Source: Fundidesulfovibrio putealis DSM 16056
Lineage (GTDB): Bacteria; Desulfobacterota; Desulfovibrionia; Desulfovibrionales; Desulfovibrionaceae
Direction: 5' to 3'
Assembly: GCF_000429325.1 (NCBI RefSeq)
Contig: NZ_AUBQ01000015.1
Coordinates: 124,001-188,000, forward strand
Length of the DNA: 64,000 nt
Shown here piece by piece: positions 24,721-46,201 of this stretch. The position numbers were made by a program, and so were the translations under genes. The notes under the pieces were generated by a model that was not told the origin of the DNA, ran no database searches, and saw nothing but the letters and a program-made list of their open reading frames with translations. Position 1 is the stretch's first letter. Each line of letters begins with the position of its first letter.

Positions 24721-25138
24721 GACACCTCCTCGCGGTTTTTGATTTCAAACATTATCCTGGTGGCGGCGAGTCAATATTTTATCTCACATTGTATCCTGTG
24801 CTCGTCCAATCAATTGACTAATCCACGGAGTCTGCTCCTTCAAATTTCTAAAATAGTTAGAACAAGTAAACTGTTAGGGCAAGGAAAAACAAGCTGGGTG
24901 TGGGTAGTTGTTGTGTCCCGCCGGGTGGGAAGGTGTCCCTGGTAAAAGCGGTCAAGGCGGAGATGACTTGCTCTTGTCACGCATTTTTCTAATCCTAACT
25001 GCGCCCAAAAGGTGTTGACCTGTTTTGAGACATGAGTATGTTTTGAACATGTTTTTGACGCGTCTTTGCTCGCTCTGTGCCGTTGGCCGGAGAGTGTGTC
25101 AAAAACGACCGTTTTTAAAACACCTGGAGTCCTTTGAC
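24721..25138. other. Intergenic boundary between signalling block and accessory region
   Basis: No gene is supported here. The stretch is AT-rich near 24750-24880. Its right part has several GTTTTGA copies, and an inverted repeat GTTTTTGAC (25051-25059) / GTCAAAAAC (25098-25106) upstream of the Fic gene, a possible operator. I find no tRNA or obvious attachment site, so the exact edge of the element cannot be placed. Confidence 0.45.
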
Positions 25139-25819
25139 ATGAACCGGAGCAAGGAAAAGGCGCTGTTCATAGCTAAGAAGAATATTGCAGGCTTGGTCTA
25201 CAGCTTCCAAGCTCTCGAAGGGATGCCTTTCACGCTGCCTGAAGTTCAGACGTACCTTCAAGGCATTACCGTGGGTGGCCACAAGGTGTCCGATCAAGAC
25301 AAGCTGAAACAACAATCCCTTGCCTGGCAGCACCTGATTCAGCTTGTGGAGAATAATGAATTCCGGCTCACAAAGAGCATTGCCTGTGAACTCAATGGGA
25401 TCGTCGCCAAAGAAGATTCCGCCGATCCTGGCCGTTTCCGGCATGGGATGGTCTGGATCACTGGGACAGACTACTCACCGCCCGACCATGACACCCTTGA
25501 CGCTAGGTTCGATCACTTGCTCACAAGAGTGCAGGGTCTGAAGAAGCCGTTCTCCATTGGCGTTTCAGTGGCTCTCGACATGGCCCACAACCAATACTTT
25601 TTCGATGGCAACAAAAGGACAGGGCTGCTGATGTTGAATGGAATTTTCATGTCTGAAGGCATCCTCCCATTCAGCATACCCGCCAAAAGCGTTCTGGAAT
25701 ACAACGAAAAAGTGTTGCGATATTACGAGACAGGTGACGAAAGAGAGATGTCTCGCTTTTTTGACGTCCAATTTGCGAAAGAATATCCAGGATTTCAAAT
25801 TGAAGGGATGGAACTGTGA
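25139..25819 (+). CDS. Fic-family protein with substituted catalytic histidine
   Basis: A 226-residue Fic-domain protein (family: AMP or similar transfer to target side chains). The signature reads HNQYFFDGNKRTGLLMLNG. Aligned on DGNKRT, the usual catalytic His of HPFxDGN is replaced by Gln, with a His two residues earlier. The anion-binding GNKR part is intact. The ATG at 25139 has GGAG nine bases upstream; longer readings start in the regulatory repeats. Its stop overlaps the recombinase start, so the two are co-translated. It may be inactive as an AMPylase, or use a different mechanism. Confidence 0.8.
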   Translation: MNRSKEKALFIAKKNIAGLVYSFQALEGMPFTLPEVQTYLQGITVGGHKVSDQDKLKQQSLAWQHLIQLVENNEFRLTKSIACELNGIVAKEDSADPGRFRHGMVWITGTDYSPPDHDTLDARFDHLLTRVQGLKKPFSIGVSVALDMAHNQYFFDGNKRTGLLMLNGIFMSEGILPFSIPAKSVLEYNEKVLRYYETGDEREMSRFFDVQFAKEYPGFQIEGMEL

Positions 25820-26483: not shown

Positions 26484-27611
26484 ATGAGCGACTCTTGTCC
26501 TGAGCCGATCCCTCCGAGGACGGCTTGCCTAGTCCCCCCCGAGGACCTCGCGTTCGATTTGCATAACCCCAGACTGTCTCTTCAGTACGAAGTGAGTCCG
26601 GGGGCTGGCGAAAAAGAATTTATTCTAGCCCTCAAGCGGGCGGCAGACCCAGCTGAACTTTTACTGTCCATCGTCAACAACGGGTACTTGGACATCGAAC
26701 CCATGGTGGTCATGGGTGAGGCTAGGCCCTACCGCGTGTTGGAGGGCAACCGTCGGCTGGCCGCTATTCGCCTCCTGCGTGACCCGCAGTTGGCCAAGGA
26801 CTGCCGTATTTCCCTCCCGGAAATTCCTCCAGGTAAAGACCTGCACTTGGACCAGATATTGGTCATGCGCGTGGAGCATGAGGACGAGGCCCGTGCATAT
26901 ATTGGCTTCAAGCATATCAACGGCCCACACAAGTGGGATTCCCTGGCCAAAGCCAAATATGCTTCAGACTGGTTTGACCAGGGCGGCATCAGCGTGGAGG
27001 AAATATCACAGCGCATTGGTGATTCCTTCGACACCGTGCGTAAGCTCCTTCATGGCTGGAAAGTCCTGAAGCAGGCCAATGACGCAGGCGTCTTTTCCAT
27101 GGAGGACCGTTACCCCACGCGCAAACTTCATTTTTCACACCTCTATGTGGCCCTTACTCGAAGCCAAGTACGCGAGTATCTGGGGTTACCAACCACCTTC
27201 TCAGGGGCCGAGATTACCGACAACCCCATCCCGCCCGACAAACTGAAGCAGTTGGGTAAGTTCTGTACGTGGCTCTATGGCAGCAAAAAGGACAGTCATA
27301 AACCCGTAGTCGCATCCCAGAACCCGGATGTCAAAAACCTATCCGAGGTGTTGGCGGACGGAAAAGCTTTGGCCCTGTTGGAAATGCATCGGGACCTGTA
27401 CCGCGCCCATGCCGCACTGACTCCCGATGACGTTCTGTTTCAAGAGGCCCTCTACCGAGCCGAGGATTCCGCAAAAAAAGCCTTAAGCAACGTACATAGC
27501 TATTCTGGTACAGAGACACTGTACAATACTGCACTTACCCTTAAGGAAGTTGCCACCCAACTCTGTTTGAACATGAAAATTCGGCGTGAGGGCGGCGTCC
27601 AGGGGGATTGA
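26484..27611 (+). CDS. ParB/Srx-domain protein of a candidate defence cassette
   Basis: A 375-residue protein. Its first third resembles the ParB/sulfiredoxin fold, including VLEGNRRLAAIRLL, which matches the ParB box with its conserved G-x-R-R. A central helix-turn-helix-like region follows (ISVEEISQRIGDSFDTVRKLLHGW). The C-terminal half is helical and unrecognised. It is not next to the parA gene at 29759, so it is unlikely to be the partition ParB. Instead it is 3 bases upstream of the putative nuclease gene and near the methylase gene. GAGGA precedes the ATG. ParB-fold proteins can be CTPases or nucleases; neither is shown here. Confidence 0.7.
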   Translation: MSDSCPEPIPPRTACLVPPEDLAFDLHNPRLSLQYEVSPGAGEKEFILALKRAADPAELLLSIVNNGYLDIEPMVVMGEARPYRVLEGNRRLAAIRLLRDPQLAKDCRISLPEIPPGKDLHLDQILVMRVEHEDEARAYIGFKHINGPHKWDSLAKAKYASDWFDQGGISVEEISQRIGDSFDTVRKLLHGWKVLKQANDAGVFSMEDRYPTRKLHFSHLYVALTRSQVREYLGLPTTFSGAEITDNPIPPDKLKQLGKFCTWLYGSKKDSHKPVVASQNPDVKNLSEVLADGKALALLEMHRDLYRAHAALTPDDVLFQEALYRAEDSAKKALSNVHSYSGTETLYNTALTLKEVATQLCLNMKIRREGGVQGD

Positions 27612-27614
27612 TCC

Positions 27615-28709
27615 GTGTTCATGTCCGTATACGTTGAAACTCCTGCGTCCAGGCTGGCGGACTGGTTAGAATTCCAGGCCATTATCCATGAATACCGCGA
27701 GGTATCACTGGATCTTTTGTGGGAGGCCATGGGCCTTGCTGAGGATACTCCAGTGGACGCCTTTGGGGAGGAAGACCCTTACGATACTGAAGTGGGAATG
27801 AGCGAAGATACACAACGCGAGCGGGTCCGGGCCAGAGTGGAACGCGAACTAGAGCGTCGCATGGAAGCCTTAGGGCCGACAGCGTATCCTTTTGTCCTAG
27901 CTGATGACGTTCTTTGCTGTACTCTGGATCGCGATGGGGCAACGCCCACAGAAGGGCAGTTGGCCTATTTGCTCTGTCTTCGCCTTAGCATACCTTTGTC
28001 CGAGGTGCTGGATCTGGACAGACTTCCGGCCATTAACACTGGTGTTGAGCGCAACCTTTTCCAGCACTGCGCCAACTTGGCCGCAGCCGGATACCTGGGG
28101 GGGCGGACGTATGCCTTTGGCTGGCCCAGGCCTGACAGAACCGATTTGCTAGGTGCGTTAACTGTGTTGGAAGATGCCATGCAGAGTGAGGGCGTCGTTC
28201 GATCCGCTATTCCCAGGACAGCCCCGCGTAATCCGAAAGACGACCAACTTGATGTCGTGGCTTGGATTCCTCACAACGACGGCCCCGGGTGCGCCTTGAC
28301 CTTGTGGGGTCAGGTGGCCACCGGTAAAGACTGGACGATCAAGGCGTTCAACTCCGACCATGTTGAACTCTTCATGCGTCATTGGTATGCGAAGCCCCCG
28401 ATGTTGAAACCGGTGCGGGCGATGTTTGTTCCCTTCAGCCTTTTTGATGATATCCATGATCGGGACCCTGGAGAGTATGTCGAGACATTACAGCTAAATA
28501 CCATATCGTACGGTATCATCTTTCATCGCTACCGCTTACCTGCCTGCGTGCAACGCGCTTTCAATCGCCCGGAGGACGTTTCGGTCATGAGAGCCCTACC
28601 AAGCGCCGAAGTAGCTCGCCTCCTACGGCAATGGTGGAGTGGTTTTGAAGCGGCACTTCGCCGTGCTGCGATGGGATCAGAAAGGGATCATGCCGCTGAC
28701 GCGGCGTAG
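27615..28709 (+). CDS. Unknown protein with PD-(D/E)XK-nuclease-like motif
   Basis: A 364-residue protein with no clear family. An N-terminal helical part rich in Glu/Arg precedes a segment NPKDDQLDVVAWIPHND followed by LTLWGQVATGKDW. In PD-(D/E)XK-like enzymes a buried Asp (LDVVAW) is followed by a strand with the remaining catalytic residues. A Q-x-A-[ST]-G-x-x-W variant of that strand occurs in some restriction-like families, as I recall. The start may be GTG 27615 or ATG 27621. The 3' end overlaps the convergent methylase gene by 22 bases. I infer a DNA-cleaving partner of the methylase; this is unproven. Confidence 0.55.
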   Translation: MFMSVYVETPASRLADWLEFQAIIHEYREVSLDLLWEAMGLAEDTPVDAFGEEDPYDTEVGMSEDTQRERVRARVERELERRMEALGPTAYPFVLADDVLCCTLDRDGATPTEGQLAYLLCLRLSIPLSEVLDLDRLPAINTGVERNLFQHCANLAAAGYLGGRTYAFGWPRPDRTDLLGALTVLEDAMQSEGVVRSAIPRTAPRNPKDDQLDVVAWIPHNDGPGCALTLWGQVATGKDWTIKAFNSDHVELFMRHWYAKPPMLKPVRAMFVPFSLFDDIHDRDPGEYVETLQLNTISYGIIFHRYRLPACVQRAFNRPEDVSVMRALPSAEVARLLRQWWSGFEAALRRAAMGSERDHAADAA

Positions 28710-29554
28710 CGTAGCGGGCTGGGAGGATCAGTCGGAACGCGCATCCAGGGCGGAAGAATGAGCAATTCCGTTGCGAAACGCTTTACTTGTGCGCTGTAGC
28801 GCAACGACACCGGCGTTATCCGAGCCCAGGCGTAGAGTTCCCGAATCAAGGGATGGTCGTCGTACGTCAACACCCAGGGTAATCCTGGATGAGACTTGAG
28901 CCAGTCGGACAGTCGGGTATGGTGTTCGGGGCGGAAGGAGTTCATGTACAAGTGTCGCCCTTGGCCCACATATGGCGGATCAAGAAAGAGAAATGGTGGC
29001 CGCTTGGCCACAGCTTCCAGAAATTCCAGAGCGTCTAGGCTGCTGACGCTGATGCTTCCGCGCCACGCCGCCAAGCGGGCAATTCGCTGTGTCAGTCGAG
29101 CGGGGTTATAGCGCGCAGTTATGGGGTATGCTCCTGTTTGTTCCAATCCCCCGATTGGGCGGCCCCGCAAGATTCCCGAACGGTTTACCCGGTTCAGATA
29201 GAAGGTGGCGAACCCTCGGGTTGTGAGGTCGTGCCCTTCTGGACGTTCCCACACAGCACGTTGTCGACGCCACTCATCTACCGTCACCGGCGTATCTTGC
29301 AACAATCGTAAGAAGTTGTCTGTGTCGCTAAGAGCAGCCAACCAAAAATCACGGATAGCAGGGTCAGCGTCATTAAGAGCCAAACGTGAGGCTTTCCCAG
29401 CGTAAAGTAACGCGATGGAAGCCCCGGCCCCACCAGCAAAAGGTTCAGCTACAGTCCAGCCCGTAAGACCATTGGTTTCCATGAGCGAAGCCAAGTATGC
29501 GGCCATGGCACTTTTCCCACCAGGGTATCGTAAGGGGCTAAAGATCGTTGCCAT
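28688..29554 (-). CDS. dam: Dam-type (D12 class) adenine-N6 DNA methyltransferase
   Basis: A 288-residue methylase with the D12-class order. RYPGGKSAMAAYLA is followed by the AdoMet-binding AEPFAGGAGASIALL, and later the catalytic FLFLDPPYVGQG with DPPY. Related enzymes methylate adenine, often in GATC, but the target here cannot be read from sequence. It converges on the putative nuclease gene and overlaps its end by 22 bases, so the cassette is compact. Solitary methylases on mobile elements protect against host restriction; next to a possible nuclease it may instead be the modification half of a system. Confidence 0.9.
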   Translation of the reverse strand: MATIFSPLRYPGGKSAMAAYLASLMETNGLTGWTVAEPFAGGAGASIALLYAGKASRLALNDADPAIRDFWLAALSDTDNFLRLLQDTPVTVDEWRRQRAVWERPEGHDLTTRGFATFYLNRVNRSGILRGRPIGGLEQTGAYPITARYNPARLTQRIARLAAWRGSISVSSLDALEFLEAVAKRPPFLFLDPPYVGQGRHLYMNSFRPEHHTRLSDWLKSHPGLPWVLTYDDHPLIRELYAWARITPVSLRYSAQVKRFATELLILPPWMRVPTDPPSPLRYAASAA

Positions 29555-29591: not shown

Positions 29592-29666
29592 AGGAATTTT
29601 GAGGCTTCCCGCAGACTGCGGCAGGCACGAGCAACCATTTGACCTGGTCCGGCAGTGTTTGCTTTT

Positions 29667-29677
29667 TTTCGTGCTTT
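29667..29677 (-). repeat. AAAGCACGAAA intergenic motif, copy 1
   Basis: The core lies in a run of A on the minus strand. Related copies are at 35036, 43875 and 57299, all at gene junctions of the mobile element. Confidence 0.4.
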
Positions 29678-29758
29678 TTTGATTGCCATATTTTTTGTTG
29701 CCGTGTTAATATCTTTTCTGGCTTGAACAGAAGTACGTCAACCCGAGAGGACGAAAGC

Positions 29759-30394
29759 ATGAAAACCATAGTTCTTGCTAGCCAGAAAGGAGGTGCAGGA
29801 AAGACCACCCTGGCCGCTCATCTGGCCGTGATGGCGGAGAAGGCCGGTGACGGGCCATGCGTGCTCATCGACACTGACCCGCAGGCAAGCCTAGCCGCAT
29901 GGTGGAACGGTCGAGAGGAAGAAACCCCTGCCTTTGCACCAACGAACTTGAAGGAGCTTCCAGCCAAGCTGGAGGCCTTGGCCCTGGCCAAGTTCAAATT
30001 TGCCATCATCGACACCCCCCCGGCCATAACCGAATCGATCCGGGCGGTTGTGTCACTTGCTGATTTCGTCCTGATCCCGACTAGGCCGAGTCCTCATGAT
30101 CTCCGGGCCGTGGGGTCAACCGTGGAGCTTGCCGCAGGGGCACAACGCCCGTTCGCATTCGCTCTGACCCAGGCTAAGGCAAATTCCAAAATCACTGTGC
30201 AAGCCATGGGCGCACTCTCTGAACATGGCGTTGTCGCCTCGGCGATCATCCATGACCGGGTTGATTTTGCCTCATCTATGGTGGATGGCCGTACGGTTCT
30301 GGAGATTGACCCGCGTGGACGTTCAGCGTCTGAGGTGGCCGAGCTATGGAAATTCTGCAAAAAACGAATTAACGATAACAAGAAAGCCAGATAG
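29759..30394 (+). CDS. parA: ParA-type partition ATPase
   Basis: From the ATG at 29759 (GAGAGGA upstream) the 211-residue product has the deviant Walker A box KGGAGKTT near residue 10, a Walker A'-like IDTDPQASLAAW and the Walker B region AIIDTPPA. These are features of small ParA/Soj-type ATPases that position plasmids or integrative elements. It lacks the N-terminal DNA-binding extension of larger plasmid ParAs. A ribbon-helix-helix-like partner gene follows 15 bases downstream, as in ParA-ParG type modules. Confidence 0.92.
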   Translation: MKTIVLASQKGGAGKTTLAAHLAVMAEKAGDGPCVLIDTDPQASLAAWWNGREEETPAFAPTNLKELPAKLEALALAKFKFAIIDTPPAITESIRAVVSLADFVLIPTRPSPHDLRAVGSTVELAAGAQRPFAFALTQAKANSKITVQAMGALSEHGVVASAIIHDRVDFASSMVDGRTVLEIDPRGRSASEVAELWKFCKKRINDNKKAR

Positions 30395-30409: not shown

Positions 30410-30655
30410 ATGTCCAAGAAGCCCGCTCCCCTTTCCGCCGGTTTGGTCGCCAAAAAGGGACAAGCCGCAGTTGGAGACGATGCAACCCCAAGGCAGCTGG
30501 AACAAAAGAACACGACGGTAGCTCACCTGAATTTCACCGTAGATGCCGATTTTCGGCGGCGTTTTAAGATGCGCGCAGCCGAGTCAGGCTTGAAGCTCAA
30601 TGAGCTTCTGCGGGAAGCACTGGATGCCTGGGAAGAAAAGCAGAAAGCACGTTAG
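30410..30655 (+). CDS. Small ribbon-helix-helix-like partition partner
   Basis: An 81-residue protein with a flexible basic N-terminus. A short strand-helix-helix segment (VAHLNFTVDADFRRRFKMRAAESGLKLNELLREALDAWEE) is typical of ribbon-helix-helix DNA binders such as ParG or CopG. It begins 15 bases after parA with AGAGGA upstream. It probably binds the partition site, represses the operon and stimulates ParA. Confidence 0.75.
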   Translation: MSKKPAPLSAGLVAKKGQAAVGDDATPRQLEQKNTTVAHLNFTVDADFRRRFKMRAAESGLKLNELLREALDAWEEKQKAR

Positions 30656-30669
30656 CACAAGGCTGCGGA

Positions 30670-32001
30670 CTATCTCTCCAGCTCGTCGCCCCGGCTCCTT
30701 TCGGGAAGGGCACGTTCCGCTTCACTGAAGCGATCCTTGAACATGTCCAGGTCCTTCGAGGCAGCGCCACTCGCTTCGAGACGTGGTCGCCAGTCCTTGG
30801 CAACCTGGAGCATGTCGTGAAGAACGCCCCGAGCTTGGTCTGGTGTAAGCCCGAAGGGCCTCACATCGCTGAGCACGTTTTCCAGGGTGGGCCGGGCTCC
30901 GAGCTTCCCGCAACGGAGGGCCAGCATGTACTTTCGGGCATCCTTGTAGCCTTGAACAGCCGGTGTGATGTCATAAGCTGGCGTCATGCGGACATGGCCA
31001 CGCGTAACAAAGAACGCGTGGTTTTTGGGATGATCGTCCGTGTTCTTGCAAAGAACATTGAAGGCCATCCTTCGGAAAAGCTCAGGACCGGCGTCTACAT
31101 CGCCATGGCGACGAGCTGCCTGAGCAAGGCCTTGGTAGCTCCCCCATCCTTTTTCATCATCTTTGCGCCGATCGGCAAGGGTAAGCCCTGAAATGACATG
31201 CTGGGGGCGGTTGCCTTCATCGCGGTCGAAACGCCGGACGAGCAGGATGTTCATGTCGTTGGTGGTAACGATCTGTGTTTCAGCCGTCTGAATACCGCAA
31301 TCGCGCGCGAGCTGCATGAGCGCATGCTCAAGCATTGGGTCGTTCCAGGCGTCCACCAGCTTAGGGAACTTGGCGATCCATTCTCCTCCCTGGGGGTCTG
31401 TGTATAAGGCCTTCGGGCGACTTCCGCCCACCAATGAACCGCTGAAGGCCATGGCGCGGAACAGGGGGCTGGAAAGATCGTCGCGCAACTGAGCCAGCGT
31501 CCCTTCCTCGACGTGCGTCTCGATCTTGGCCAGCATCCCGGCGATGAGTTCCAAATCATTGACGGGCTTCATGAGCGAAGGGCCGTCATACCATTCAGCC
31601 ATGGAGGCGGGGCCTTTGAGGTCGGGGCCGAAGGCCAGGGCACCGATCCTGTGCGGCTCGTGCACGGCTGTGAGGATGTCTATTTCAGGAAGGCTCTCAA
31701 TGGCCGTTGGACAGTAAAGCGATAACAGTCGCCTCCCCCAGGAGTCCGGCGCAACGTCCTCGAACACGTTCGGCAGACAGCCCGTATCACGGAAGGCCAC
31801 AGGGGTCTCCAGGGAAAGGGGCAGACGAACTGGGCTTAACGGGATGGCGTCCGGTAGCCGCCGGTACTTTTGGCCGTATCCGAACTGATACCGGCCCAAA
31901 TCGGGGTCATGGGTGAGCAGCCCGGCGGGCACGTATTTTTTCCCAGGCAAGTAGATGTAAACATAAACTTCTTTGGGCCTAGAAGTCGTACTTGGAGTCA
32001 T
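30670..32001 (-). CDS. hipA: HipA-family Ser/Thr kinase toxin
   Basis: A 443-residue HipA-type protein. Family features are the GGSRPKALYTD loop, EHALMQLARDCGIQTAET, and the kinase core LCKNTDDHPKNHAFFV with its NxDDHxKN catalytic signature and a following DITP. The ATG at 32001 lies inside the end of the antitoxin gene, overlapping it by 23 bases, a usual arrangement for translationally coupled hipBA. The known E. coli enzyme phosphorylates glutamyl-tRNA synthetase and halts growth; the target here is not known. Confidence 0.9.
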   Translation of the reverse strand: MTPSTTSRPKEVYVYIYLPGKKYVPAGLLTHDPDLGRYQFGYGQKYRRLPDAIPLSPVRLPLSLETPVAFRDTGCLPNVFEDVAPDSWGRRLLSLYCPTAIESLPEIDILTAVHEPHRIGALAFGPDLKGPASMAEWYDGPSLMKPVNDLELIAGMLAKIETHVEEGTLAQLRDDLSSPLFRAMAFSGSLVGGSRPKALYTDPQGGEWIAKFPKLVDAWNDPMLEHALMQLARDCGIQTAETQIVTTNDMNILLVRRFDRDEGNRPQHVISGLTLADRRKDDEKGWGSYQGLAQAARRHGDVDAGPELFRRMAFNVLCKNTDDHPKNHAFFVTRGHVRMTPAYDITPAVQGYKDARKYMLALRCGKLGARPTLENVLSDVRPFGLTPDQARGVLHDMLQVAKDWRPRLEASGAASKDLDMFKDRFSEAERALPERSRGDELER

Positions 32002-32329
32002 CGGAGGTCCTTCTGTTGTGCCCGCGCACCCTCTCTGGCAACGACCGCACGGTAATGGCTGTACCCATGGCGTCCTCTCCAGGATCGACCAACTCGCCGA
32101 CACGATAATCTAGTTCAAGCACCCAGAGCACGTGCGTCAAAATGCCCAACGAAACGCCCGGTTCCCCTTTCTCCAGCTTGGCCAGGGTGGGGCGGGTGAT
32201 CCTCGCCCGCTTGGCCAGGTCCTTGGCAGTCAAGCCACGGCGCTTTCTGGCTGTGCGGATATCTCCGCCGAGCTTTCGCAACGTGTCCAGCACGACTTCC
32301 GGCAATGCTTCTTTCGCATCGGTCTTCAT
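31979..32329 (-). CDS. hipB: HipB-like XRE antitoxin
   Basis: From the ATG at 32329 the 116-residue product contains an XRE helix-turn-helix (IRTARKRRGLTAKDLAKRA, then ITRPTLAKLEKGEPG) and a charged, flexible tail that should contact the toxin. It is upstream of and overlaps hipA. An inverted repeat just upstream is a likely operator for autorepression. The ribosome site is weak. Confidence 0.88.
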   Translation of the reverse strand: MKTDAKEALPEVVLDTLRKLGGDIRTARKRRGLTAKDLAKRARITRPTLAKLEKGEPGVSLGILTHVLWVLELDYRVGELVDPGEDAMGTAITVRSLPERVRGHNRRTSDDSKYDF

Positions 32330-32338
32330 GGAAAGTAG

Positions 32339-32382
32339 AGTATGCACAAAGTGTATATTAGGCAATGTCTAGTTTGCATACT
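32339..32382. promoter_or_regulatory. hipBA operator palindrome
   Basis: AGTATGCA (32339-32346) and TGCATACT (32375-32382) are perfect inverted repeats 28 bases apart, directly before hipB. The AT-rich spacer (GTGTATATTA) probably holds the promoter. Confidence 0.65.
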
Positions 32383-32452: not shown

Positions 32453-34753
32453 TCAAGATGGGCTTCGGCCTGGGCATGGAGCGGAATGTCTTCGAATTAA
32501 GTGGTGGCGTCGAGAATACACAGCTGTCCCAGTTTTGCCGTTGAGCATCAATGCGACCTCGTTGTATGTTTTGTCCAAGTTCTCCAGGATTATCTTGTCC
32601 TCCTCCGATGTCCAGGGCTTGCTTTTTGTAGTGGCCGTATGAGGTTTGCGTAACCCGAGGTCGCTTCTTCTTCTGGCTACACTTGAGCGTGCGCGATTTA
32701 ATGCAAGTGCAATTTCGCTATCTGTTTGGTTGGAATTTTGAATTATGAACTCATCTTCATCTGTGGTGAATCTTCTGTCGTTCACATGCGATGGGCCACC
32801 TCTATTTAGCCCAAGTATTTTACGGCGATGGCATATAGTGCCTCTATGGCGTCCAAGCTTTTGAGCAATGTCTGAGTCTGTCAATATTTCCCAATTGTCG
32901 ATTATAAATTTGTCGTCAGCTGCGGTCATCCAACCTTGCTTTCTCCCTTTGTTCGTATCCTTTAACAACCCAAGATTTGAGCGCTTAACTTGAATGCTTT
33001 GCACGGAACGATTTATGTGTTCAGCAATTTTTGCGTCAGTTAAGTGTGTTGAGGCTTTGAGATAATCAATCTCCTCTTTGGTCCATCTAGTGGAGGCGGC
33101 ATTTTGTTTTGATTGCAAGTCTATGTCTTCTGGGTCGACGCCAAGCATTATCAATAGATTTCTTCGTTTTGGATTTAGTCGCGTGTCCCATGTTCGAATT
33201 TGATACCGATACCATCTTGCAAGTGTCTGGTTCATATGCCGTCTGGATACTTTGCAATGTCCATGGATACTTTTGAACTCAACAAGACGGCCAAACATTT
33301 CATCCCAGCTATCACCGATCCGATCAATAATTTTGGCGTCAATTGATTTTCTTATTGTTTCAGTGTCAATGTCCTGTGAAAATACTTCTATAATTATTTT
33401 GTTTCCATCTTCTGCATGCTTGACATATGGATTGTCTTTGTTAAGTCCAGCCCGTGATAGTCTTATCCAAGAGTCAAAACGACCGTCACTTGCACGCATG
33501 GCTTCCAAAACTGTCCATACCTGTTCGTATCCAGACATGCCCAGCGCATCAGAAAGCTCCTCTCCTCCCGCGTCGTCAAGGTAAAGTGGTAAAAAAATGA
33601 ATCCAATTTTGTCAGGATGCTTTGCGTCTTTTCGAGAAGCTCGACCAACAGCCTGCACAATATCTATTTCGCCGCGTTTCTTCCGCATGAATGCTACCAT
33701 GTCGACAGCGGGGACATCTATGCCCATGGTCAAACAACGGGCATTGCTGACCGAAATATCTTGATCCGCGCTTAACAAATTCATTACTTCTGACCGCTGG
33801 GAAGCAGGCATTCGAGAGGATATGTAAGAATGAAAGACATCAGGCCATACCTCTTGAACCGATCCGCTTGAAAACGCCGCACACTCATCTATGGTATTAA
33901 AGAAAAGAATACTCTTGCGGATGCCGTATTTTTTGCACGCGGCTTTTAATGCTAACGCATTTGCGGCAGATTCTATGTCTGAAGAATTCGACAAGAGAAG
34001 TTCGCGTGTAACATCTTGCTTTGTTATCACGGAAATTATTATTCGATAATCCGCAATCAAGCCTTGCGCCACAGCCTCAGCAAAAGTCAATTCGTAAACA
34101 CGTTCCCCATAGAGTTCTGTGTCATCCATGGAGAAGTAACGATTATTCCCCTCTAAATTCTTCTGCTTCTCTTCATATGATCGAGGGGTAGCGGTCATAA
34201 ACAGTCGTTTGCGGATAAGAACATGCCGATCCAACAAAGGAACAGAGAAGCCACCAAATGAAAGCCCTACGTAGGCTTCTCCTGCTGTACAATGGGCCTC
34301 GTCAAAAATGCCAAAATCGAAATGGAGCCCTTCCGGTATGGCCTCTGCAAGCATTCCTGCGGATTGATAGGTGCAGCAGACGACGTGTTTCCCGCCGTTC
34401 AGGCTATTAAAGTATTCCCGGATCACGGCAGGGCTTGTGGTTATCCTTGTCTCTGTGATTTCAGAAATGTCCAGATCGTCAAAAACGGATTTATCCGAAC
34501 ATACTCCAAAGAACTCCGCATCTTTCCATTCCGTTGTTGCTGCCCACTGGCCCACAGTTTGCCGCAGGAGCCAAAGCGACGGCACAAAGATTACCACGAC
34601 TCGGCTTTCTAGGCCTTCTGCGACCCAAGGCCCTATAAGGGTCTTGCCGGTTCCGCACGGCATTACAATGGTAGCTCTGTCTCGTGTCCTAAACGCTTCG
34701 ATTGCGGCTGAAACTGCTTTGGCCTGATGTGGACGTGGCTTTATGATATTCAT
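32453..34753 (-). CDS. DEAH-box helicase with helicase-associated domain and four Myb/SANT-like repeats
   Basis: A 766-residue superfamily 2 helicase. Motif I is MPCGTGKT (about residue 33), motif II is FDEAHC, and motif VI is QAVGRASRKD. A helicase-associated segment (FKSIHGHCKVSRRH, near residue 500) follows. From about residue 555 there are four units of about 52 residues, each beginning with a Trp or Phe plus acidic residues (RWTKEEIDYL, WMTAADDKFI, RFTTDEDEFI, PWTSEEDKII) and ending in an R-R-x-x-LGL-like helix. These resemble Myb/SANT DNA-binding repeats. GAGGT precedes the ATG. The gene is visibly AT-richer than its neighbours, which suggests separate acquisition. Defence or DNA-repair roles are both possible. 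Confidence 0.85.
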   Translation of the reverse strand: MNIIKPRPHQAKAVSAAIEAFRTRDRATIVMPCGTGKTLIGPWVAEGLESRVVVIFVPSLWLLRQTVGQWAATTEWKDAEFFGVCSDKSVFDDLDISEITETRITTSPAVIREYFNSLNGGKHVVCCTYQSAGMLAEAIPEGLHFDFGIFDEAHCTAGEAYVGLSFGGFSVPLLDRHVLIRKRLFMTATPRSYEEKQKNLEGNNRYFSMDDTELYGERVYELTFAEAVAQGLIADYRIIISVITKQDVTRELLLSNSSDIESAANALALKAACKKYGIRKSILFFNTIDECAAFSSGSVQEVWPDVFHSYISSRMPASQRSEVMNLLSADQDISVSNARCLTMGIDVPAVDMVAFMRKKRGEIDIVQAVGRASRKDAKHPDKIGFIFLPLYLDDAGGEELSDALGMSGYEQVWTVLEAMRASDGRFDSWIRLSRAGLNKDNPYVKHAEDGNKIIIEVFSQDIDTETIRKSIDAKIIDRIGDSWDEMFGRLVEFKSIHGHCKVSRRHMNQTLARWYRYQIRTWDTRLNPKRRNLLIMLGVDPEDIDLQSKQNAASTRWTKEEIDYLKASTHLTDAKIAEHINRSVQSIQVKRSNLGLLKDTNKGRKQGWMTAADDKFIIDNWEILTDSDIAQKLGRHRGTICHRRKILGLNRGGPSHVNDRRFTTDEDEFIIQNSNQTDSEIALALNRARSSVARRRSDLGLRKPHTATTKSKPWTSEEDKIILENLDKTYNEVALMLNGKTGTAVYSRRHHLIRRHSAPCPGRSPS

Positions 34754-38148: not shown

Positions 38149-38772
38149 TCATGATCCTTTCATTTCGTTGCTGGCCACTTCCCGGAACCGCTTCACCAGC
38201 ATCGGCGAGGCAGCAGGGCGCTGGGCAGCAATTGCTGGCGCGGAAGAAGGAACTGACGGCGCTTCACCGCCGAGGCGGCGAAGCACGGCAGCGGCATAAG
38301 CCCAGCCACGTTCGGGGTTGCGATCGACAGGGGTATGGTAGGAGGCGACTGCGCGCCAGTTCAGCCCATGGCGCTTGATTTCCTTGCCGAGAATCCAGAC
38401 GCCCACCTGGATGTTGCCGGGAGGGTCCAGGATGACCTCCAAGGGCAGGCGGTAGCGTCTGATCCACCAGGAGTTAATCTGCATGACTCCCACATCGAAG
38501 GAGAGGCCTGCGGCCAGGGCCGCGCGGCTGATCGCCACGGCCTGCTCTTTCGTGACGGGTCTGACTGTTCGCCCCGCGATGTTCAGAATCCATGGCTGCA
38601 TCCCGGACTCTTGACCGGCGATGGCCAAGGCCAGAGGACGCGGAACGCTGTAACGATCACACGGGGCGTCGAAGAGGCTGGCCAGGTCCTGGCCAGCCAG
38701 GACCTGATTGCACGACAGGAGAACCAGGATGAGCCCGGCTAGTGCCTGAATCACCGGTCCAACTCCCGGCAT
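38149..38772 (-). CDS. Lytic transglycosylase (VirB1-like)
   Basis: A 207-residue exported enzyme. A signal peptide (QALAGLILVLLSCNQVLA) precedes an SLT domain with the catalytic Glu in LALAIAGQESGMQPW and the motifs VGVMQINSWW and VASYHTP. It should open peptidoglycan locally for the secretion channel. It overlaps the end of the ArdC/primase gene by 22 bases, consistent with one operon. Confidence 0.87.
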   Translation of the reverse strand: MPGVGPVIQALAGLILVLLSCNQVLAGQDLASLFDAPCDRYSVPRPLALAIAGQESGMQPWILNIAGRTVRPVTKEQAVAISRAALAAGLSFDVGVMQINSWWIRRYRLPLEVILDPPGNIQVGVWILGKEIKRHGLNWRAVASYHTPVDRNPERGWAYAAAVLRRLGGEAPSVPSSAPAIAAQRPAASPMLVKRFREVASNEMKGS

Positions 38773-41120
38773 TGTTCCTTGGCTAGGCCGCGACCAAGTT
38801 GCTGTGTCACCTCCTTGATCCCCCGGCTGGCGTGAAGATCGTTCCAGTCAGTCAACCTGGCCTCCCGTTCTTCCTTGGTGAAGGCCGGGACGATGACGCA
38901 GCCTCCGACAGCCAAAGCGGCCTGTTTGGCTTTCTCCACGCCGATGTTGCCGTGCTCCCGAGCATGGTCGTTGTCGGCGCAGATGGCGATCTTGGCCATG
39001 GGGAACTTTTCGCGCAGAGCCTTGGCCACGGGCTCAAGATTGCCTGCATCGAAGGCCACGACGACAGGCATGCTCGATGCCATGTGCAGGCTGACGCCGG
39101 TGGCGTAGCCTTCAGCGATGAGCAGAATTTGGCCTTGCTCCAAGTTCTTATCGGGATCGATCAGACTGAAGCAGCCTTTCTTTTCGGCACCGGCCTGGAA
39201 TCGCTTCGTCCCATCCCAGTCGATTTCCTGGACGTTCCGAAGTTCGCCCGTTGCGTTATAGAGAGGGACCAGCAGGAGCATGGCGTCAGAAGACTCTTTG
39301 ATGTCGCCATAAGGGTGGATGCCCTTTTTGAGGAGATAAGGGTTCCTAATCGCCGCCATGGGCATAATGGGCGGGAGGACGCTAAAGTCCTGCTGGCACC
39401 GCAGGGCCACGTCGTCTTGAAGCGCCAGGCGCTCGCGTTCTCGTTGTTTGCTGCGCTGCTCCGCTTCCAGTCGCAGGGCCATCTTCTGCTCTTCCGTCAG
39501 GGTATGGCCGGTGGCCTTCCACTTGGTCTTTTCGCCGGTGAGATAGTTCTCGTACCACCCAGCAGGACGGCCATCGAGATATCCCTTGTAGGCTCCATCG
39601 CGGGCCTGAGGTTTGCCGCCCAGAACGGAAACGCGGTGAATCTTGCCGTCCATGACGGGAAGCTGGCCTTTGAGGTCAAGTCCGGCATCGCGGAGCGCCT
39701 GAGCGAATTCAGAGAGAGGGTCCATGGTCTTGGCCGGGCTGGCAGCCTTGTCAGGGAACCAGGTTTTCAGCTTGGCCAGGTCGGAACCTTCCGGCGCGAA
39801 CCAGAGTTTGGCCTCGGCGTCCCATTTGGCACCGGCAGCCTTGGCCAGGTTCTTTTCCCGGAAGGGTACGGCCAGGAACACCTTCCCGGTGGCCGGTTGG
39901 GATGGCGCGGCGGGTTCCTTGGAGGGCTCGACATCATGGGCCATGGTGGTCACTGCACCATCCCGAGACAGTTCCAAGGCATGCTTGAGAGCGGCAAAGG
40001 CATCGGCACGGGTCGGGAAGAATTTGTCCTTGAACTGCGCCAGGAGGCCATCGTTGTTCGGGATGGCGAACCACTCCTCCGGTTTGGACTGCATAACCAT
40101 GTCCACGATGCCACCGCTCACGGGGTCTTTGTTCGTTGCCAGACCGCCGGGCCTGGATTCACTCCAGCCCTCGGGCAGGGTGAGGTTTGATGAAGCCAAT
40201 TCCTGGCCTTTGCCGAGTTCCTGCTTCTGTTCCATAGTGAGCACGTATTGTTTGATCTTTTCGGCGTCCCGGCAGGCCCGGACGATTTCATAGGGGTCCT
40301 GCTCCAACACCTTGATCCACGAATCCACGTAGGCCAGATGTTGGCCGGGGTCATAGCCGATGCCCATATCCTGGCCGAGCATCCAGGATGCGATTTCGGC
40401 CCGGAGTTCTTCCTTGGCGTACACTTCCGAACCGAACGGACCGAACTCGCGTCCCATGCGCGACTCATGGCCGGTCCAGTGACCGAGTTCATGCAGTGCC
40501 GTGGAGTAGTAATCGCCGGGGGTCTGGAAGCGATCCAGAGTGGGCAGGCTGATTTCATCCTTGGCGGGGCTGTAGAAAGCCCGATTGCGCTGGTTGTGTT
40601 TGATGACTGCGCCGGAATTGCGAAGAATGGCTTCCGCTTTCTCGTTCGGGTCCCAATCCCGGATGAGCGTGGAGGGGGCCAGAGGAGGAACGTCTCCATC
40701 AAGCTGGCTGACATGGAAAACGGAAGAAAAACGGGCCACCGGCCTGGCCAGCTCCACCTTGTTCATCACCTGGTTGCCGTCGCCATCGAGCACTGGCTTG
40801 CCGTTGTCATCCAAGGCGGGTTCTTCCTTGGTGAACTGCCAGAAGACGATAGTCTGTGATCTCTCGCCCTTGCGAACACGGCAGTCCAACGAGTTGGCCT
40901 GTTTGAGCGTCATCCAGCGAGGATCGGCATACCCTTTGCGGGAGAGCATGAGCCTGTTGATGCCGCTGTAGACCGTGCCCGAGACGGGGTTCATGGGCGG
41001 GTGGAGTTCACCTGGCCGCCAGGGTTTCTGCCACGGCGCGGCCCCGGTTTTGAGATCTTCGATGATCTGCTCGGCGAACACCTGATGGACCGGTTTGCGC
41101 GCGTTTGCATCATTCGCCAT
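38751..41120 (-). CDS. ArdC-type antirestriction/zincin fused to a TOPRIM primase-like domain
   Basis: From the ATG at 41120 the protein has 789 residues. The N-terminal ArdC-like ssDNA-binding domain (KPVHQVFAEQIIEDLKTGAAPW) is followed by a zincin with HELGHWTGHESRM (HExxH). A DUF5710-like repeat follows (VPFREKNLAKAAGAKWD), and the C-terminal TOPRIM domain has AEGYATGVSLHMA and AICADNDHAREHG. Such multidomain proteins are carried into recipients and protect or prime incoming DNA. A longer reading from 41267 has no support and crosses the small upstream gene. Confidence 0.88.
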   Translation of the reverse strand: MANDANARKPVHQVFAEQIIEDLKTGAAPWQKPWRPGELHPPMNPVSGTVYSGINRLMLSRKGYADPRWMTLKQANSLDCRVRKGERSQTIVFWQFTKEEPALDDNGKPVLDGDGNQVMNKVELARPVARFSSVFHVSQLDGDVPPLAPSTLIRDWDPNEKAEAILRNSGAVIKHNQRNRAFYSPAKDEISLPTLDRFQTPGDYYSTALHELGHWTGHESRMGREFGPFGSEVYAKEELRAEIASWMLGQDMGIGYDPGQHLAYVDSWIKVLEQDPYEIVRACRDAEKIKQYVLTMEQKQELGKGQELASSNLTLPEGWSESRPGGLATNKDPVSGGIVDMVMQSKPEEWFAIPNNDGLLAQFKDKFFPTRADAFAALKHALELSRDGAVTTMAHDVEPSKEPAAPSQPATGKVFLAVPFREKNLAKAAGAKWDAEAKLWFAPEGSDLAKLKTWFPDKAASPAKTMDPLSEFAQALRDAGLDLKGQLPVMDGKIHRVSVLGGKPQARDGAYKGYLDGRPAGWYENYLTGEKTKWKATGHTLTEEQKMALRLEAEQRSKQRERERLALQDDVALRCQQDFSVLPPIMPMAAIRNPYLLKKGIHPYGDIKESSDAMLLLVPLYNATGELRNVQEIDWDGTKRFQAGAEKKGCFSLIDPDKNLEQGQILLIAEGYATGVSLHMASSMPVVVAFDAGNLEPVAKALREKFPMAKIAICADNDHAREHGNIGVEKAKQAALAVGGCVIVPAFTKEEREARLTDWNDLHASRGIKEVTQQLGRGLAKEQCRELDR

Positions 41121-41304
41121 GGTCGCTGCCCTCTTCACCGGCGAACATATCCTCCAGGTCGTCAGGTCCGACGGCCAGTTCCTCGAAGGCTCCCATGAAC
41201 TCTGCAACCTCGGGATCGACCGGTATTCCCAGTCCCGGATTTTCCATGGCCTGAACGTCCACCGCACGGGCGGCTGCCATCAAATACTCCTTGTCCACGA
41301 TCAT
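41110..41304 (-). CDS. Small acidic protein between TraF and ArdC/primase genes
   Basis: A 64-residue acidic protein (many Glu/Asp: PEVAEFMGAFEEL, DLEDMFAGEEG). Its ATG overlaps the stop of the peptidase gene (ATGA), and its end overlaps the start of the ArdC gene by 11 bases, so translational coupling supports it as real. No family recognised. Confidence 0.65.
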   Translation of the reverse strand: MIVDKEYLMAAARAVDVQAMENPGLGIPVDPEVAEFMGAFEELAVGPDDLEDMFAGEEGSDHGE

Positions 41305-45088: not shown

Positions 45089-46201
45089 TCAGCTTCCTTT
45101 GGCGCAAGTGGTACAGACGATGATGCGGCCATAGTCCGACATGGGATTGACCCAGCCCAGGGTGTCGTCAGTGGTCAAAAGCCGTAGATTCACCCGCCAT
45201 TGCGTCGGATTGAGGCTGGTGGCCCAGGCCTGGAACGCCGTCAGCGGGGGAGCTTCGGCTCCGGCGGCGGAGATGGAGGGCGCAACGAAAATCTCAGGAA
45301 CGGTATTGGTACCTGGAGGGCAGACAGGTTTCTCAATGACATCGCCATCCCTGGCCAGGGTGGCGGTTTTGAACAGAGTGCTGTTGCCGGTGTCGGCCAG
45401 GACTTCCATCTTGCCGTTGCGGCAGATGTAGAGCCCCTGGTTGGCATCGAGGAAAACCCTTCCTTCCACGGAAGCATCGCAGGTTTCGGAGCCAAAAGTC
45501 CGGGGGGTGAACTGGATTTCCTGGACGTTGCGGATGGCATGGTCCGTCATGTCCAGTTCCGTCTGCATAGCGTTGAGTTCAGGATGCCCAGGTACCGACA
45601 CGCGGTAGAGGAAATCCTGACCAAGGCTTGAGCTGTCGAAGGTGGCCAGCGCCCCGAGGTGGCCAGCACCTGGGGATGCGACTCCCACGCTGGCCAGGTC
45701 GAGAACCCAGCCGCCGAAGGCACCGCGAAGCGTCCCGGAAGCTTGCCCAGGGATATCCCCCGTGGGTATGAACCCTCCTGAACCGCCAGCCATGGCGGCA
45801 GCAGAGGGTACGATGGCCGTGCCGAATTTGGGCTTGCTGACATCGTGGCCAAGGCCACCCGTGGTGAGGATCACGGCCTGAAGGGCATTCGATGACGGTT
45901 GGCGGAAATGGATCTGATACGTCTGACCCCAGACGTTGTTTCCTTGGAAGCCCACCTGGAGGAAACTCTCAGCGACAAGAGGAGCCGTATCGATCGCAGG
46001 CCCGCTGGTTGCCGTTGTCTGGCCCAGCAAATTCGTCTGGTGCTTGCGCACATAAGCGGCTGTTGCCCGGCTTACCTGGCCAAGCTGGTCCGCAGCCTGA
46101 CGCTTCTCCAGCTCGTTGGAGCCCATCACCCAGAGGTTGGCCAGGGACGGCAGCAGTATGAACATGACCGCCATCGCGGCGACTACTTCAATGAGCTTCA
46201 T
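45089..46201 (-). CDS. pilV: PilV-like thin-pilus tip minor pilin
   Basis: A 370-residue protein with a pilin-like N-terminus (LIEVVAAMAVMFILLPSLANLWV) and the PilV-type segment NELEKRQAADQLGQVSRATAAYV. A long Gly/Pro-rich body contains four C-terminal cysteines. In IncI1 plasmids the PilV C-terminus picks recipient cells and is switched by a shufflon. Here I see no shufflon repeats or extra C-terminal cassettes next to the gene. It precedes trbI by 2 bases. Confidence 0.8.
   Translation of the reverse strand: MKLIEVVAAMAVMFILLPSLANLWVMGSNELEKRQAADQLGQVSRATAAYVRKHQTNLLGQTTATSGPAIDTAPLVAESFLQVGFQGNNVWGQTYQIHFRQPSSNALQAVILTTGGLGHDVSKPKFGTAIVPSAAAMAGGSGGFIPTGDIPGQASGTLRGAFGGWVLDLASVGVASPGAGHLGALATFDSSSLGQDFLYRVSVPGHPELNAMQTELDMTDHAIRNVQEIQFTPRTFGSETCDASVEGRVFLDANQGLYICRNGKMEVLADTGNSTLFKTATLARDGDVIEKPVCPPGTNTVPEIFVAPSISAAGAEAPPLTAFQAWATSLNPTQWRVNLRLLTTDDTLGWVNPMSDYGRIIVCTTCAKGS

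Follow-up and report, generated by a model that had tools for sequence, protein, structure and literature searches.

The closest tested system to the locus described here is PD-lambda-5, an anti-phage system (Vassallo et al. 2022, PMC9519451) that is found in prophages and islands and in which a single A protein of about 460 amino acids stands with a DNA methylase of the D12 family. Type II restriction-modification (R-M) systems offer another comparison, with a PD-(D/E)XK-type nuclease gene beside an interchangeable methylase gene, and ParB/Srx proteins are also found in a DNA-modification or restriction setting in GmrSD, DndB, and other ParB/Srx-fold defense proteins (PMC4619093, PMC10853773, PMC12839542). 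The locus that we analyzed is a trio of genes in a window of 64,000 nucleotides from Fundidesulfovibrio putealis DSM 16056 (contig NZ_AUBQ01000015.1, positions 124,001 to 188,000, forward strand; "the window" below is this whole stretch), and it encodes a ParB-like protein, a second protein for which we use the working name X, and a DNA methylase. We consider it likely, with a probability of about 0.76, that this cassette is a three-gene R-M-like defense unit. The genes lie where an earlier sequence-only reading of the window had placed them, with 3 bases between the ParB-like gene and X and with X and the methylase gene converging in a tail-to-tail overlap of 22 bases:

26484-27611, + strand: ParB-like protein, 375 amino acids (Foldseek, VIA, phrog_3694)
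27615-28709, + strand: X, 364 amino acids, GTG start; predicted winged helix and PD-(D/E)XK nuclease
28688-29554, - strand: D12-class N6-adenine DNA methylase, 288 amino acids (PF02086, PD-Lambda-5_B, DPPY motif)
28251-28253, + strand: codon of X Asp213, presumed metal ligand (105/105 relatives)
28311-28313, + strand: codon of X Gln233, the E/Q position of PD-(D/E)XK (105/105 relatives)
28341-28343, + strand: codon of X Lys243, migrated catalytic lysine (K243 in 89/105 relatives)

The trio resembles PD-lambda-5 in its methylase, which belongs to the same D12 family (PADLOC profile PD-Lambda-5_B, 7e-93, residues 1 to 275), and in the N-terminal domain of the ParB-like protein, which is homologous to that of the A protein (PADLOC, 1.2e-13; hhalign, 99.8% over 195 columns), the best PD-Lambda-5_A match covering residues 20 to 161. 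In contrast, PD-lambda-5 lacks X, the C-terminal half of its A protein has no counterpart in the trio, and the trio differs further by its separate PD-(D/E)XK-type X and its use of C5 and N4/N6 methylases. We rejected the possibility that PD-lambda-5_A is a fusion of ParB with X, as hhalign gave a probability of 0.3% for the C-terminal half of A and X. Because that half is unrelated to X, the trio is, by sequence comparison, not a member of PD-lambda-5. The sequence-only reading had not recognized the trio as any named system, and this stands for PD-lambda-5 itself, although the combination of a ParB-like protein with a methylase of this family is already known from PD-lambda-5. Compared to Type II R-M systems, the trio likewise has a methylase gene next to its nuclease-type gene (PF02086 in the window, on its own strand; near 135 of 152 X genes overall), but Type II systems have no near-obligatory third gene for a ParB-type clamp protein, and X has no significant sequence relative among the solved restriction enzymes. 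GmrSD works with an HNH nuclease on DNA that must be modified, Dnd relies on phosphorothioate, and both, unlike the trio, are without X or an obligate base methylase partner; we found no PF03235 or HNH match in the ParB-like protein or X with Pfam. The A protein of PDC-M38, a PADLOC candidate system, covers the greater part of the ParB-like protein (4.8e-20, residues 51 to 344), but it is 715 amino acids long with an extra half to which X bears no match, the alignment ends at position 340 of the 715-position profile, and X has no match in PADLOC. A literature search for PDC-M38 returned no paper.

A search with the ParB alignment fetched at least 160 loci from genomes and viral contigs, and the counts given here and below are for the matches listed. 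Because these loci were fetched by the ParB motifs alone, except for a few plasmid and phage loci (L004, L006-L013), the counts for X and for the methylase are largely free of selection. We found X directly downstream, on the same strand, in 152 of 160 distinct ParB-like genes, and a methylase gene within 2.5 kb of 135 of the 152 distinct X genes, immediately next to X in 114. For 7 of the 17 X genes without a methylase, the contig ends within about 530 bases of X. In the first 1.5 kb around the ParB-X pair, the density of these methylase genes is 0.32 per kb, and between 1.5 and 4.5 kb away it drops to 0.005 to 0.015 per kb. An identical convergent layout is present in another genus of the same family (ParB 71% and X 60% identical), in a third genome of the window's class, and in Vibrio campbellii, where the methylase is of the D12 class. 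The trio is a widely conserved unit and not a chance association. The co-occurrence check proposed in the sequence-only reading found the three genes together in genomes of 14 phyla and in phages, while the cassette is rare in the window's own class, where 4 of 348 genomes have it. Protein searches that used X or ParB alone as the query returned almost nothing in genome and viral contigs, one match (L003) was discarded as spurious because it lies on the wrong strand, and no operator common to the upstream regions of the window and L002 was obvious by eye.

The versions carried elsewhere vary in the third gene. On a Mesorhizobium plasmid, ParB and X stand in line with an N4/N6 methylase, and in the P2-like phages Wphi, 12474III, and Pseudomonas D14A, a gene for a C5 cytosine methylase converges on the ParB-X pair. 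A version of the cassette is present in both Wphi and E. coli W, and in RefSeq the genes of the E. coli copies carry the labels "ParB N-terminal domain-containing protein," "hypothetical protein," and "DNA cytosine methyltransferase." Among 5426 complete E. coli genomes, 139 have X as the "hypothetical protein." The P2-like prophage copies sit between portal and replication genes, and P2-like phages carry a defense hotspot (PMC9122126).

The methylase of the window contains a DPPY motif and matches PF02086 (Pfam, 9.6e-17); the label of Dam that it had been given from sequence alone is too narrow, as it is of the D12 class and scores 39 bits against a Dam cutoff of 115 bits (NCBIfam). Three unrelated methylase classes are found among the loci (D12 N6-adenine, C5 cytosine, and N4/N6, assigned with Pfam), and the class switches at least 11 times on a joint ParB-plus-X tree (FastTree), on which C5 is confined to one side of a branch and D12 and N4/N6 interchange. 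The loci L050 and L078, for example, are 75% identical in ParB and 67% in X, yet one has an N4/N6 and the other a D12 methylase. Pairwise identities correlate at 0.94 to 0.97 between ParB and X, compared to 0.54 to 0.80 between ParB and the methylase. The methylase is the exchangeable part of the cassette, and ParB and X coevolve tightly; the higher correlation of these two argues that they probably act together. The simplest reading is a two-part ParB-plus-X machine that nearly always needs some adjacent DNA methylase, and the constant presence of some DNA methylase is as expected for the protective half of an R-M system.

X is predicted to have a winged helix (residues ~7 to 138) followed by a PD-(D/E)XK nuclease domain (~139 to 316). 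An AlphaFold model built from 105 relatives has a predicted local distance difference test score (pLDDT) of 88 and a predicted template-modeling score (pTM) of 0.90. Its structural matches in VIA were headed by MspJI (Z 6.3), BsaWI (6.0), FokI (5.7), PaqCI (5.4), and AspBHI (5.3), followed by BspD6I, Card1, NgoMIV, and Shedu SduA. The structure check suggested by the sequence-only reading thus returned a nuclease-type core whose best matches, at modest scores, are nearly all PD-(D/E)XK restriction enzymes, while the N-terminal 130 residues match the winged helices of FOXN1, JetABC subunits, and BrxR. X also matches phrog_14650 (PHROGs, function unknown; 2.9e-31). A profile search of solved structures found no relative of X, Pfam gave nothing significant, and NCBIfam and PADLOC gave no match.

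The evidence from sequence for a nuclease is stronger than that from the predicted fold. Residues D16, R82, D213, Q233, and R305 are invariant in 105 of 105 relatives of X, and E19 and D209 are kept in 104 of 105. A lysine is found at one of two sites, with K243 only in 88 of 105 proteins, K235 only in 16, both in 1, and neither in 0; K235 has the classical Q-x-K spacing, and K243 lies ten residues past Q233. The same alternation is seen in the 152-row X set, except for one truncated protein. Because there are about two switches on the tree, the Fisher p value of 5e-18 for this alternation overstates independence. A lysine that may stand at either site but is never missing looks like the mark of a working PD-(D/E)XK active site. 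The sequence-only reading was largely right, but in the core that it guessed the conserved lysine is K243 and not the lysine of QVATGKDW. The prediction that X is a nuclease, with a strong motif pattern and with fold matches that agree with one another at modest Z, and the association of the genes are both well supported.

The ParB-like protein has an N-terminal ParB/Srx nucleotide-binding domain (NPR at 28-30, EGNRR at 87-91), a helix-turn-helix (HTH) in the middle, and C-terminal helices. Its AlphaFold model (pLDDT 93.5) matches ParB and KorB at an E value of about 1e-5 in Foldseek, and its matches in VIA include KorB (Z 10.9 over 201 residues) as well as ParB bound to cytidine diphosphate (CDP) or to a ligand of the cytidine triphosphate (CTP) type (Z of about 10). 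As modeled, the protein has the ParB/KorB clamp fold, which agrees with the ParB/Srx domain and HTH first noticed in the sequence. It matches phrog_3694 (PHROGs, function unknown; 8.8e-71), and Pfam returned only a weak HTH match. The CTP-dependent clamps ParB, KorB, and Noc share its nucleotide-binding and HTH fold but differ in having a ParA partner, where the partner here is a predicted nuclease, and in the GERR motif. In an alignment of solved chains, GERR of ParB aligns with GNRR, a change of Glu to Asn seen in 80 of 80 relatives; the EGNRR motif was part of the search pattern, so the invariance of this Asn is partly by construction. Titles of Protein Data Bank (PDB) entries among the matches include the E93A and Q52A mutants of Myxococcus ParB, in which E93 and Q52 serve CTP hydrolysis. 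Given this role and the change of Glu to Asn, the family may, by analogy, bind nucleotide without turning it over in the same way.

If the cassette is an R-M-like defense unit, the methylase would mark the host copies of a short DNA site, the HTH and clamp domain of the ParB-like protein would recognize or load at unmethylated sites, and X, as a winged-helix PD-(D/E)XK nuclease, would cut DNA there. Invading DNA without the methyl mark would be degraded and host DNA spared, and the ParB-like protein and X would form one functional unit that restricts. We infer that the ParB-like protein binds X, that methylation blocks both and nucleotide gates both, and that exclusion of phages or plasmids results. 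All three natural disruptions seen in E. coli, in P2-like prophages, hit X, which is broken by IS5 or ISKpn26 or is split (L174 3053-3914, L175 2795-3775, L181 1567-2604), while the same methylase is intact in each, and this is the asymmetry expected of an R-M system; L023 and L082 keep only an N-terminal remnant of X. The sequence-only reading had proposed a defense or modification cassette and had made this depend on a nuclease fold in the 364-residue protein and on a neighborhood shared with other genomes. The predicted structure shows a nuclease-type core and the shared neighborhood was found, whereas the defense role is one that we infer. A further proposal is a new class of R-M in which recognition falls to a ParB-type nucleotide-gated clamp, cleavage falls to a PD-(D/E)XK nuclease with a winged helix, and the methylase is a plug-in from three unrelated families; this we put forward tentatively, as less likely than not.

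Several findings weigh against a defense unit of this kind. Some ten ParB-X pairs lack a methylase gene within 2.5 kb although there is room for one, and the continued match between a single ParB-X pair and methylases of differing class is hard to account for. The methylases of Wphi and 12474III are 98% identical, while their ParB proteins share 32% and their X proteins 25%. The structural Z scores of X, at most 6.3, are in the range that the tool rates as common, and Foldseek alone gave no significant match for the X model. The sample of disrupted X genes is three, and these are possibly not independent.

Given a specific mechanism, the R-M-like reading becomes one in which the ParB-like protein is a nucleotide-gated clamp that loads where a site is unmethylated, then slides along the DNA and delivers X away from that site. 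The model spans the whole nucleotide-binding and HTH region of ParB, and the Asn in place of the GERR Glu would allow nucleotide binding to be kept and hydrolysis changed, but EGNRR was also used to fetch the relatives; we regard this mechanism as possible, though rather doubtful. The carriers, which are conjugative elements and temperate phages, would also suit an abortive or addiction system, in which ParB-X would cut the chromosome of the host once the methylase is lost or inhibited, so that the cassette stabilizes its element or kills infected cells instead of directly restricting incoming DNA. PD-lambda-5 has been described as a compacted R-M and abortive infection (Abi) system (Vassallo et al., PMC9519451), but its Abi part is presumably the C-terminal half of PD-lambda-5_A, which is not homologous to X. 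Since any R-M system can act as an addiction module, the two readings overlap, and as an explanation in its own right this one seems somewhat unlikely to us.

The ParB fold and the parA gene at 29639-30394, which lies 84 bases past the methylase gene, could be read as a partition system of a plasmid or integrative and conjugative element (ICE), with the ParB-like protein as centromere-binding partner of ParA and with X and the methylase as passengers. A ParA-type Walker motif is present within 5 kb in only 3 of 152 relatives, the window among them, whereas X lies beside nearly all, and the window's parA has a small ribbon-helix-helix gene beside it (30413-30652). Because a ParA-like gene is near so few relatives, we rejected a partition role as extremely improbable, and the sequence-only reading, too, kept the ParB-like gene separate from the parA pair. 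The winged helix of X and the HTH of the ParB-like protein might instead suit a methylation-sensitive repressor pair, an epigenetic or regulatory module with a nuclease-dead X. This is very unlikely, as all 105 aligned X proteins retain D213, Q233, and a lysine at one of the two positions, and a dead nuclease would not need them.

Some loci combine the pair with other genes of restriction or defense type. Seven compound loci carry ParB-X, a PD-lambda-5_A-type gene, and a single D12 methylase (L027 7125-10530, L036, L038, L055, L060, L071, L088; L027 confirmed by PADLOC), as if two effectors shared one protective methylase, and through them the trio is linked to a system whose anti-phage activity has been measured (PMC9519451). 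A NotI-family nuclease gene lies near ParB or X in L082 (7316-8194), L046 (8457-9293), L078 (8749-9600), and L090 (5798-6679), identified by PF12183 in L082 and by similarity in the others; it adjoins ParB-X in three of these four loci, and X in L082 is the N-terminal remnant. L010 (92-8003) has ParB-X in a larger restriction-like cluster, beside a Z1-domain protein and C5 methylase, DUF262, and a PD-(D/E)XK motif protein, and L012 (5959-12714) has two ParB-X pairs and an apparent Z1-domain protein.

In the window, the cassette is cargo of a conjugative element with type IV secretion genes, a topoisomerase, and an ArdC-like antirestriction protein, in keeping with its earlier placement among cargo genes; this setting, with that of the P2-like phages, also speaks for a defense role. 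It is flanked by a gene for a Fic-family protein (25025-25819) and by a HipA-like kinase gene with an upstream HTH gene (30670-32365). A superfamily 2 (SF2) helicase with a helicase-associated domain (32453-34753) resembles type IIG and type I restriction subunits in PADLOC (4e-69) and may be a further defense gene. The large protein encoded at 38751-41267, with ArdC N-terminal, zincin-like metallopeptidase, and Toprim domains, is a probable antirestriction protein of the same conjugative element, and a shufflon-type pilV-like gene (45089-46201, PF04917) suggests that the conjugation cluster contains a pilus-tip region that can be inverted.

We found no paper that describes the trio, in a search outside which most subscription journals lay, so that this absence is not proof. 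The text of the DefensePredictor paper (PMC13092281) does not mention ParB, and an overlapping find there is possible. A Wolbachia prophage paper (PMC3089641) concerns a ParB-like domain within a methylase and a PAO1161 paper (PMC6945700) an unrelated type I system, and neither is this trio. The trio is an apparently undescribed, widespread R-M-like cassette.

ParB clamps are known from chromosome segregation. If the reading of the trio as an R-M-like defense unit is true, the conserved pairing of a ParB clamp and a restriction-type nuclease would bring two fields together and point to a new means of scanning DNA for sites that lack methylation. Two families present in phages and in 14 phyla, phrog_3694 and phrog_14650, would also gain a function, as would a hypothetical protein of E. 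coli.

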